A DNA stretch of 64,000 nucleotides from a virus. The notes beneath the pieces were generated by a model. The model was not told where the DNA came from and did not search any database. It saw only the letters and a list, made by a program, of their open reading frames with translations. Positions 6,465-45,929 of this stretch are shown here, in pieces (the first letter of the stretch is position 1; each line of letters starts with the position of its first letter). Made by a program: the position numbers and the translations under genes. The stretch covers positions 1 through 64,000 of IMG/VR virus record IMGVR_UViG_3300037054_000366; one strand, written 5' to 3'.

Positions 6465-6538
6465 GCAGCCGTAATTCATCGGTAGAATGGTTTGCTCTAA
6501 CCAGACTTAGGCGGGTTCGACTCCTGTCGGCTGCACCA
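6465..6538 (+). tRNA. amber-suppressor tRNA, anticodon CTA
   Basis: Complete cloverleaf with encoded CCA: acceptor GCAGCCG/CGGCTGC, D-stem ATTC/GAAT, anticodon stem GTTTG/CAGAC with loop CTCTAAC, T-stem GCGGG/CCTGT with loop TTCGACT. The 7-nt loop puts CTA (6497-6499) at positions 34-36 with U33 in place, so it should read UAG. The amino acid carried cannot be told from sequence. Many genes here end in TAG (9426, 13127, 18310, 21106, 34736 and others), so complete amber recoding is unlikely; regulated readthrough or use of another gene set elsewhere is more plausible. Confidence 0.88.
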
Positions 6539-6650: not shown

Positions 6651-7319
6651 ATGGCAACCATCATCGACATCAACGAAACCAAACAGCCTCATGCCCCCCG
6701 GTTCACTGAAGAACAGAAAGAAGCGTGGCAGAAGGCGAAAGCCCTTCTCAAGAGCGGAATGACCAACACCCGTGCGCTTCACATCGCCATGTCCGAACTC
6801 CGCAAAGAGAACGGTCGGAAGCACAAGGGTCCAATCGAGACTGAGCCCAAGCGTGACGGCAAGCTGACCGAATATAAGGCTAAGCTGGTGAGCAGCCAGA
6901 TGGCCGCACGGGTCGCCCAGTGGAAGGCTTATCTCCGTGATCCTGGGAGCCAGAAGCTCTTCATCATCGTCCGGAACGACCTCGAAACTTCCCAGAAGGC
7001 AGTGCAGGCCAGCCATGCGGCTGCGGAATTTTCCAAGCGCCACCCCCTCGCCCCTTGGGTCAACGGAACGATGGTCCTGCTGATCCCCGATCAGACCAGT
7101 CAGACCTTCCAGCGTTACCTGGAGGCCCCACACAGGCCAGTCAGCCCCACTTACCAGCATGATCCTTTCGAGGCATTTTGCCATGACCGCTTCTGGCCGT
7201 TCGAGTTCCAGACCGAATGGAGGGAGCCGGATCAGGGTAACCGCATCACCGCTGTGGCCGTCCTCTCCTGCTTCAACAATGAACTTTGCAGCAAGCAGCA
7301 TGGAGTGAAGCTCCTCTAA
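6651..7319 (+). CDS. PTH2-like (peptidyl-tRNA hydrolase 2 fold) domain protein, 222 aa
   Basis: The N-terminal ~90 residues are helical and basic (ALLKSGMTNTRALHIAMSELRKENGRKHKGP, HTH-like). From about residue 100 the sequence KLFIIVRNDLETSQKAVQASHAAAEF matches the start of the Pth2 fold (VRxDLxMxxGKxAAQxxHAA), with a degenerate glycine/lysine region. Pth2 enzymes free tRNA from stalled peptidyl-tRNA. It lies directly after the suppressor tRNA gene. Missing consensus residues mean activity is uncertain; the function could be RNA binding only. Confidence 0.55.
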   Translation: MATIIDINETKQPHAPRFTEEQKEAWQKAKALLKSGMTNTRALHIAMSELRKENGRKHKGPIETEPKRDGKLTEYKAKLVSSQMAARVAQWKAYLRDPGSQKLFIIVRNDLETSQKAVQASHAAAEFSKRHPLAPWVNGTMVLLIPDQTSQTFQRYLEAPHRPVSPTYQHDPFEAFCHDRFWPFEFQTEWREPDQGNRITAVAVLSCFNNELCSKQHGVKLL

Positions 7320-9631: not shown

Positions 9632-9812
9632 ACCCGGTTCGTCTAAATGGTTAGGACACTCGCATTTAGGTAGTATGTTTGTGTAGGATTGCCTTGAGTA
9701 AGCAGTGTAAAGCAAACCTACCCGATACCGCATCAGCTAGTCGGGGCTACTCACCTCAGAGGATCTGATGAGGAACGAGTTATATGGGTTCGAGTCCTGT
9801 ACCGGGTTACCA
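9632..9812 (+). tRNA. tRNA (Glu-like body) with ~110-nt structured insertion in the anticodon loop
   Basis: Acceptor ACCCGGT (9632-9638) pairs with ACCGGGT (9801-9807). The D-arm GTCT...GGAC (9641-9657) is followed by 5' anticodon strand CTCGC (9659-9663). The 3' strand CGAG (9776-9779), a 4-nt variable region and T-arm ATGGG-TTCGAGT-CCTGT follow only after an insertion (about 9665-9774). The body resembles tRNA-Glu (TTCGTCTA...GGTTAGGACA). The insertion is itself foldable (CCTCA/TGAGG, TGAGTA/TACTCA, CCGA/TCGG). Splice points, and so the anticodon, cannot be fixed; it is shorter than ordinary group I introns. Confidence 0.7.
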
Positions 9813-44913: not shown

Positions 44914-45031
44914 TTAGACTCTAACAGCACCACCTATCTCAAACTGCGATTTGTGGGTTCGATTCCCACCTCTGCGCCTTGCGCGGAGTGGCCAAACTGG
45001 AAAAGGCAGCAGTCCCGAAATACGAGTCTAG
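44914..45031 (+). tRNA. candidate circularly permuted tRNA (3' half before 5' half)
   Basis: The 3' half comes first: anticodon 3' strand ACTGC (44943-44947), 5-nt variable GATTT, T-arm GTGGG-TTCGATT-CCCAC, acceptor 3' strand CTCTGCG (44970-44976). After CCTTG the 5' half follows: acceptor CGCGGAG (44982-44988), TG, D-arm GCC-AAACTGGAAAA-GGC, A, anticodon 5' strand GCAGT (45009-45013). Acceptor (7-8 bp) and anticodon stem (5 bp) pair perfectly only in permuted order, and flanks TTAGACTC (44914-44921) and GAGTCTAG (45024-45031) extend the anticodon arm by 8 bp. All canonical spacings hold. The anticodon depends on the joining site. Confidence 0.7.
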
Positions 45032-45286: not shown

Positions 45287-45541
45287 ATGAGTCAAGAGGA
45301 TAAGCATCAGCACATCATCCAGCGTCTCACCTGTCTTAAGGACTCTTCATTGATCCAGACGGGAATGACGCTGGATTTGTATCAGCGAGAGGGGACGGAT
45401 CGAAGTGTCTTCTTTGTCAAGATCCCGGCTCTGGCTGATCAACTTTTCGAGGTGTTCGACAACCATCATGGTTTTTCCTTTGAAGAATGTCGAGCATACA
45501 TTCGAATTGTGCTAGGTATTAAGGAGCAGCCCTTTGACTAA
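45287..45541 (+). CDS. hypothetical protein, 84 aa
   Basis: AAAGGATCAACGC precedes ATG 45287, 16 nt after the tRNA-Thr CCA. Alpha/beta (DKHQHIIQRLTCLKD, SVFFVKIPALADQLFEVF). Overlaps the PTH2 gene by 8 nt. Confidence 0.55.
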   Translation: MSQEDKHQHIIQRLTCLKDSSLIQTGMTLDLYQREGTDRSVFFVKIPALADQLFEVFDNHHGFSFEECRAYIRIVLGIKEQPFD

Positions 45542-45929
45542 ACAAATGATTGTAATGCGAAAAGATCTCAATATGCGTAAGGGCAAGATGGTGGCTCAGG
45601 GGGCTCATGCCTCTGTGGCTGTTTTGCTAAACGCCGGAGAGTTCGGTGGCGATGGTCCCGTTGATTTTACCCTTCATTTCGAAACTGAAGATGATCCACT
45701 TTACTGTTGGATAAGGGGGTTATTCACCAAAATTTGTGTTTCCGTAGACTCCGAGGAAGAGCTTATGGAAGTATACGGCAAAGCTAAAGAAGCAGGCTTG
45801 CTCTGCACTCTCATAACCGACTGTGGTCTGACCGAGTTCAACGGAGTGCCAACCAAAACTTGCTGTGCGATAGGACCGGCCACTGATGAACAACTTCAGC
45901 CAATCACCGGACACCTCAAACTTCTGTAA
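45534..45929 (+). CDS. pth2: peptidyl-tRNA hydrolase 2 family protein, 131 aa
   Basis: MTKQMIVMRKDLNMRKGKMVAQGAHASVAVLL is the Pth2 signature (VxRxDLxMxxGKxxAQxxHA), followed by KICVSVDSEEELMEVYGKAKEAGLLCTLITDCGLTEF and PTKTCCAIGP, the conserved D-AGxT-and-Gly end. Cleaves peptidyl-tRNA to recycle tRNA. It is the first full enzyme after the tRNA cluster, a functional link with phage tRNAs. Normal length. Confidence 0.92.
   Translation: MTKQMIVMRKDLNMRKGKMVAQGAHASVAVLLNAGEFGGDGPVDFTLHFETEDDPLYCWIRGLFTKICVSVDSEEELMEVYGKAKEAGLLCTLITDCGLTEFNGVPTKTCCAIGPATDEQLQPITGHLKLL

Follow-up and report, generated by a model that had tools for sequence, protein, structure and literature searches.

The window, a stretch of 64,000 nucleotides of viral DNA (positions 1 to 64,000 of IMG/VR record IMGVR_UViG_3300037054_000366), carries inside its tRNA cluster, between tRNA-Gly(GCC) and tRNA-Val(CAC), a 118-nt unit (44914-45031, plus strand) in which the two halves of a tRNA are encoded in swapped order. 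The permutation is confirmed as real and not a product of chance, and the unit probably encodes a phage Y RNA of YrlA type, a Ro-bound mimic of tRNA, rather than being a hidden tRNA gene. The computed evidence comprises the permutation itself, a modular family of eight such units in one phage genome, covariation of their basal stem, a gene of predicted Ro60 fold with family members upstream of it, and an association between units and this gene across phages. The window comes from a virus record of 96,435 bp, which runs collinearly with the end of the 313,597-bp record of a jumbo phage (G001); the offset of 217,162 is the same whether taken from the tRNA at 6465 or from the Gly tRNA. Identical copies of the unit were found in two more IMG/VR records (G001 and G002; loci L002 and L003). 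The unit was reported neither by ARAGORN run on the window nor by Rfam at gathering thresholds.

Read base by base, the unit begins with the 5' strand of a closing (basal) stem, TTAGACTC (44914-44921), adjoined by a conserved motif, TAACAGCA (44922-44929), which together with the last C of the stem forms CTAACAGCA. If the halves make up one tRNA, anticodon-loop nucleotides 33 to 38 (TCTCAA, with the anticodon CTC at 44938-44940) and the 3' strand of the anticodon stem follow at 44937-44947; this strand, ACTGC (44943-44947), is separated by a variable region, GATTT, from the T-arm GTGGG-TTCGATT-CCCAC (44953-44969), to which a partial RF00005 match corresponds (44952-44969). Next, according to the reading, the folding and the halves-fit test, the acceptor stem forms a closed hairpin (44970-44988), composed of the 3' strand CTCTGCG (44970-44976), the linker CCTTG and the 5' strand CGCGGAG (44982-44988), and then come TG, a D-arm of 3 bp with an 11-nt loop containing GG (GCC-AAACTGGAAAA-GGC, 44991-45007), A26, the 5' strand of the anticodon stem GCAGT (45009-45013), CCCGAAATAC, and the 3' strand of the closing stem, GAGTCTAG (45024-45031). 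Thus the order described in the initial annotation, with T-arm, variable region and acceptor 3' strand ahead of acceptor 5' strand, D-arm and anticodon 5' strand, was reproduced base by base, as was its observation that only CCTTG, between 44976 and 44982, parts the halves. The stems that it listed are also present: an acceptor of 7 bp with one G.U (8 bp counting the next pair), the ACTGC/GCAGT anticodon stem, and an 8-bp flank stem with one terminal G.U, so that the acceptor strands lie 5 nt apart while the outer ends of the unit are paired. Its canonical spacing can likewise be read in the sequence (TG, A26, a 5-nt variable region and the 7-nt T-loop TTCGATT). By eye, 10 and 21 unpaired nucleotides lie between the anticodon stem and the basal stem, with no 3-4-3 pattern seen.

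A chance resemblance made by neighbouring tRNA pieces has practically no probability left, being already refuted by the halves-fit and shuffle counts. Tandem tRNAs naturally place a T-arm before a D-arm, and one junction at an ordinary tRNA on another locus of the same phage (L008) reached 21.8 bits with the YrlA model; against this, the window has a single instance of CTAACAGCA together with a 7-bp closing stem, and 200 order-1 shuffles of the window yielded two instances between them (an expectation of about 0.01 per shuffled window), and the acceptor strand of the unit is fitted best by its own 5' half, which none of 90 5' halves from other units equalled. The folding energy of the unit is unimpressive (z -1.69, with 8 of 200 shuffles folding as well), and its minimum-energy fold retains the closing stem and the acceptor hairpin and loses the T-arm; the permutation is therefore not evident from free energy alone.

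The jumbo-phage genome contains a family of such units. A relaxed motif scan found 11 sites in G001 and 4 in the reversed sequence; eight of the 11 share the stem AGAC.C/G.GTCT, and the remaining three look like chance. These eight members were picked by eye and seven paired positions were required by the scan, which imposed no pair types, and across the members stem pair 2 occurs as GC, CG, AT and TA, all four Watson-Crick types, and pair 7 as TA and AT. The 7-bp stem and TAACAGCA are constant in all eight, and the insert varies: by eye it is a permuted tRNA at 203520, 204081 and 262084 (the unit of the window), a T-arm alone at 203893 and 207894, and devoid of tRNA features at 2155, 13132 and 201537. 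Directly upstream of a gene for a 475-aa Ro-like protein lie the 2155 copy and a variant (TTGCAGCAA), recognised by eye, that would be the ninth. Two members on locus L018 of the same genome (5548 and 6110) are better YrlA matches, with flanks of AAGAC.C, TAACAGCA and then G.GTCTTG. When four other members were folded, the z values were -0.06, -0.36 and -1.56, not clearly better than shuffles, and -2.90. A non-functional tRNA, decayed or rearranged and left behind by recombination, would suit the position of the unit in a tRNA cluster, such clusters being prone to rearrangement in phages. This origin is nevertheless very improbable, being disfavoured by the covariation of the closing stem: eight paralogues retain stem and motif, with compensatory changes, and the stem is perfect in 54 of 56 permuted units elsewhere.

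The family extends to many phages. A search pattern of motif plus T-loop, scanned over IMG/VR, matched at least 119 stretches, with 114 distinct sites in the loci analysed. Cloverleaf scoring of these sites gave 56 strong permuted and 35 strong linear units; the 23 weak-scoring sites were left out of the halves-dealing, class, CCA, joined-halves and anticodon counts, and a further 8 of the 91 strong units gave no anticodon arm in the analysis of that arm. When the 114 sites were sorted by the position of the closing stem, 75 came out as permuted, 23 as linear and 16 as other, so that the linear count depends on the method (35 by cloverleaf score, 23 by stem position, that is, with an upstream hairpin). 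The search for homologous permuted units that the initial annotation had proposed thus shows the permutation recurring in many phages, with 56 strong cases. A linear unit is a tRNA in ordinary order whose anticodon arm is interrupted by a hairpin and then CTAACAGCA; the two orders are one fold with different ends, the acceptor being open and the hairpin closed in linear units, and the reverse in permuted ones. Among the 56 permuted units, picked for the stem test by acceptor and D-arm only, 54 have a perfect 6-bp closing stem, with 28 distinct stems represented, whereas with 5' strands dealt among units the number of perfect stems averaged 12.6 and never exceeded 21. Selecting loci by the motif gave 118, counting duplicates, with 196 motifs; a 7-bp stem accompanies 130 of these motifs, and in 41 of the 130 the insert measures at most 60 nt and lacks a T-arm. 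No unit was found in 79 control tRNA-bearing loci or in reversed loci.

The 41 records searched for DUF2828 do not count as independent: units are shared between L003 and L031, which look like the same phage, and L054/L076, L058/L116, L114/L137 and two Enterococcus phages are apparent close relatives. L031 (IMGVR_UViG_3300037243_000095, 106,154 bp) is probably a further fragment of the jumbo phage or of a very close one, since each of its three motif sites duplicates one in G001. Variants escape scans for the exact motif, among them the ninth copy, upstream of the Ro-like gene, and the introns of BUCT-ZZ01, a phage of Synechococcus elongatus PCC 7942, which lie in its linear tRNA-Asn and tRNA-Met with the joint expected at 29/30. 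No feature is annotated at the stretch in the records of EfV12-phi1, EA1, JoeDirt, LP-124, CPX and BUCT-ZZ01. A similarity search of INPHARED with the whole tRNA island returned five records, every match being at ordinary tRNAs, and a search of IMG/VR for relatives through the neighbouring Pth2 protein returned only two near-identical records; no report on permuted tRNA genes in phages was found in the open-licence literature. The motif also occurs in bacterial assemblies (L180-L239), where the stem, permuted or linear, accompanies 24 of 62 sites; three or more of the 24 have an unformed T-stem and look like chance. Many of these bacterial sites are in assemblies of Lachnospiraceae, Oscillospiraceae and Clostridia, possibly on phage contigs.

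The 475-aa protein of G001 matches phrog_850, 'RNA-binding protein' (E 1e-143), and Pfam DUF2828 over its cut-off, and a vWA-type D.S.S motif is invariant in 12 of its homologues. It is predicted to have a Ro60-like fold: in an AlphaFold2 model (mean pLDDT 78.9, pTM 0.67), all eight Foldseek matches in the PDB at E <= 1e-3 are Ro60/TROVE structures, including Ro60 of Thermus phage phiLo, the similarity being moderate (TM-scores 0.37-0.57). An ordinary Pfam TROVE partner, which was considered as well, was found at the sequence level in none of three and then none of 41 records, the partner being DUF2828. Homologues occur in 677 of 50,697 INPHARED records, and several mycobacteriophage records name theirs 'Ro-like RNA binding protein'. 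The accessible part of Iyer and others (PMC7824862) records that a small subset of jumbo phages encodes an RNA-binding protein of TROVE type, which in cells works with a tRNA-like partner; no report on phage DUF2828 was found in the open-licence literature.

DUF2828 was found in 33 of 39 long carrier records and in 3 of 22 tRNA-bearing controls, a small set (contigs of at least 50 kb among 80 listed, the carrier L030 left out) whose three positives are all among its 10 members of at least 100 kb. Two records with chance-like sites, L040 with DUF2828 and L082 without it, bring the total to 34 of 41. In 13 of 30 records (the 34 positives minus three isolates and L040) DUF2828 lies within 5 kb of a unit, as compared with 1.9 expected. 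A family member is 0.2 kb upstream of the Ro-like gene in G001; the unit of the window is elsewhere, about 260 kb from this gene, which by the offset falls outside the 96-kb record of the window, and the distance would be about 52 kb if the ends of the G001 record meet. Units or short siblings adjoin the Ro-like gene in phages of Enterococcus, Mycobacterium, Bacillus, Listeria and Campylobacter. In JoeDirt, a phage of Mycobacterium smegmatis mc2 155, a permuted unit lies about 115 nt past the Ro-like gene. No credible unit was found in the stretches around DUF2828 in KVP40, wV8, GAP32, Staphylococcus S-CoN_Ph12, Lak-B5 and Aeh1, and none around DUF2828 in the control records L359, L360 and L361. 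RNA ligase genes are near the Ro-like gene in Listeria phage LP-124 (RtcB) and Cronobacter phage GAP32. In Campylobacter phage NCTC 12673, the short gene gp012 is likened in a record note to KVP40.0300, the Ro-like gene of KVP40, and an unannotated abundant 158-nt RNA is described in the accessible part of a report as the most densely transcribed feature of the phage (PMC6024767). This RNA (L363:811-968; phage 7110-7267) adjoins gp012 and is a lead only; at its locus the motif scan found no TAACAGCA unit, and there was no credible RNA family match.

A constant stem plus TAACAGCA around a variable insert is the building plan of Y RNAs, which favours that reading of the family. As outlined in the accessible part of a paper, this plan combines a basal stem for Ro with an effector body, and the body of bacterial YrlA receives tRNA-type modifications and binds PNPase (PMC8394870). 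In a permissive Rfam scan, YrlA (RF02553) matched the unit at 44945-45011, model positions 23-85, which are those of the tRNA-like module, with 25.0 bits, below the gathering threshold of 69. The model matched 8 of 11 loci tried (E <= 0.0011), with full-length matches in L147 (45.2 bits, the best relative and also short of the threshold), JoeDirt (39.8), L053 and its duplicate L087 (39.5), L105 (39.5) and L048 (37.4), and with no match in L115, L138 and L170. Considering these scores and the 21.8 bits at an ordinary-tRNA junction, the YrlA model alone is not decisive. In architecture the unit has what characterizes YrlA and its relatives: a permuted body in which a T-arm, a capped acceptor-like stem and a D-arm are present, a long covarying stem formed by the two ends (8 bp in the window), and a Ro60-family protein in the same genome, here predicted from the fold of DUF2828/phrog_850. 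The phage units differ from YrlA in carrying their own motif, TAACAGCA, which is not visible in the YrlA consensus, in being present in several copies per genome with DUF2828 and not Pfam TROVE as the partner, and in keeping an anticodon arm, which is not named for YrlA in the accessible part of that paper (PMC8394870).

The short phage siblings, with stem and motif and no tRNA part, resemble YrlB-like Y RNAs when compared by architecture, YrlB not being known to carry a tRNA module. YrlB is the second Y RNA of the Salmonella rsr-yrlBA-rtcBA operon, an RNA-repair operon of Ro and Y RNA whose authors, in the part of the paper available, raise the possibility that an anticodon nuclease is inhibited by YrlA (PMC7790460). 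By analogy with bacterial Y RNAs, a stable RNA of about 118 nt would be made from the phage unit, its paired ends (basal stem plus TAACAGCA) would serve as a handle for the Ro60-like ring protein DUF2828/phrog_850, and its body would act as a circularly permuted mimic of tRNA, presenting T-arm, capped acceptor stem and D-arm. Such a body may engage PNPase, tRNA modification enzymes and anticodon nucleases, with a putative role in RNA quality control or, in the infected cell, as a decoy for host defences that cut tRNAs. Likely Y RNAs near Ro60 were reportedly noted in more than 250 bacterial and phage species by Chen in 2014, which limits the novelty of Y RNAs in phages as such.

The initial annotation had called the unit a permuted tRNA gene, and the circular permutation and the tRNA-like character of the joined halves hold (52 of the 56 permuted units, once joined, are read as a tRNA by ARAGORN), but 'tRNA gene' is not the best description. 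Nor is the maturation by end joining that it proposed the best reading, given the tRNA-less inserts, the Ro60-like protein, the YrlA architecture and the absence of encoded CCA in 23 of 27 permuted units whose neighbours encode CCA. A permuted pre-tRNA of this kind would be cut at the anticodon arm, its ends joined by an RNA ligase and the resulting circle opened at the acceptor to yield tRNA-Glu(CTC), the linear siblings containing the same intron in ordinary order and the Ro-like protein perhaps recognising the stem plus TAACAGCA in the role of a chaperone. This is judged unlikely, even with considerable evidence on its side. The reversed halves do join to a complete tRNA: 83 of the 91 units, that of the window as Glu(CTC), are read as full-length tRNAs by ARAGORN after joining, as compared with 10 of 90, 10 of 90 and 16 of 91 when halves are dealt at random, the joint being chosen for the best anticodon arm in real and dealt halves alike; the raw stretches are read as tRNA in none of the 56 permuted and one of the 35 linear units. 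A strand of the anticodon stem is split in 44 of the 91 units (class i), after nucleotide 29 in 29 of these, and T33 is kept in 39 of the 44; such normal anticodon loops count against a pure mimic, which would not need them. The same stem and motif are inserted into tRNAs of ordinary order (35 by cloverleaf score, 23 by upstream hairpin), and a match to the RNA_ligase family was found in 24 of 41 records (20 over the cut-off, G001 included), a count made with no control set. RtcB was considered as a general partner and set aside, being present in only 5 of the 41 records, again counted with no control set.

Several observations weigh against conversion of the units to tRNAs, besides the missing CCA of the permuted units. 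The stem and motif also enclose inserts without a tRNA part, CCA is encoded in only 4 of 35 linear units, and 26 of the 91 units fit neither class i nor class ii. In class ii, to which the unit of the window belongs and in which the split is in the loop, a T at nucleotide 33 of the 3' half is present in no more than 6 of 21 units, that of the window among them; some other class ii units carry a T on the 5' half by eye. An ordinary tRNA-Glu(CTC) is already present in G001, and no splicing signal of a known type was recognised in the unit. Permuted tRNA genes occur in algae and archaea, and with these the phage units share a 3' half placed first, a break at the anticodon arm and a short acceptor linker, but the phage family has tRNA-less siblings and a Ro-like partner, and no bulge-helix-bulge was recognised by eye. 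The processing of circularly permuted tRNA genes is mentioned in the accessible part of PMC10085705. The tRNAs of Lak megaphages carry introns, which as small insertions in phage tRNAs are comparable to the linear units, and the accessible part of the report describing them does not mention permuted genes (PMC6784885); unlike in the linear units, TAACAGCA was not seen by eye in the Lak-B5 stretches examined.

Linear tRNAs of the Aeh1 type have CCA in the gene and are preserved across an alignment of five Aeromonas phages, which is in keeping with functional tRNAs; the exact motif is absent from them, and they may be placed in the family by analogy. One such gene, of 122 nt (L171:8190-8311), is annotated as tRNA-Val in Aeromonas phage Aeh1 and as a joined tRNA-Leu in PX29; it looks like a single linear, intron-like tRNA, on the amino acid of which the annotations disagree. 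Conceivably, in a single system, the Ro-like protein would read the stem plus CUAACAGCA, hold the anticodon arm and, with a phage RNA ligase, remove the insert, so that linear and permuted genes alike would give working tRNAs; such a system seems doubtful. If it were true, Y RNAs would originate as substrates of tRNA splicing, and, to our knowledge, neither tRNA splicing with the help of a protein nor permuted tRNA genes would have a precedent in phages of bacteria.

Y RNAs have been known for decades and their purpose in bacteria is still uncertain. Here predicted Y RNAs are present in many large phages, eight or nine in one genome, alongside tRNAs, RNA ligases and a Ro-like protein, and the interchangeable linear and permuted forms with recognisable anticodons make the roles considered for Y RNAs (decoy against tRNA-cutting immunity, tether for RNA decay, relic of splicing) directly testable in phages that infect laboratory hosts. 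Programs for finding tRNAs overlook such genes; the Aeh1-type gene, in contrast, is annotated as an ordinary tRNA.

The G001 genome (loci L008, L018, L019 and L021) has, according to ARAGORN, 49 tRNAs and a tmRNA, a near-complete set in which, by eye, several tRNAs show a long variable region and some of the Leu and Ser forms are of class I size. The anticodons Ser(CGA), Asn(GTT) and Val(TAC) seemed absent by ARAGORN, and the unit, whose 5' half reads CCCGAAA, was considered as a supplier of the missing Ser(CGA); the idea was dropped when ordinary Ser(CGA), Val(TAC) and Asn(GTT) genes missed by ARAGORN were seen by eye, those for Ser and Asn having a second support from the permissive Rfam scan. 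A tRNA-Asn-like gene (L018:11450-11565; G001:209450-209565) has an interruption of about 40 nt in the anticodon loop without TAACAGCA, which is a second kind of small insertion. For L019:8994-9170 (G001:226794-226970; about 9632-9808 of the window), ARAGORN proposes a tRNA-Lys(TTT) with a 106-nt intron. Among the joined units, Thr(TGT) is the commonest anticodon (11 of 83). Beside the permuted unit of L105, a weak tmRNA match (1206-1562) overlaps a group I intron match (1555-1770), together spanning L105:1206-1770. Within the window, the tRNA with anticodon CTA at 6465-6538, called Pyl by ARAGORN, is probably an amber suppressor tRNA, and a 131-aa protein resembling phage peptidyl-tRNA hydrolases is encoded just past the tRNA cluster (45534-45929).
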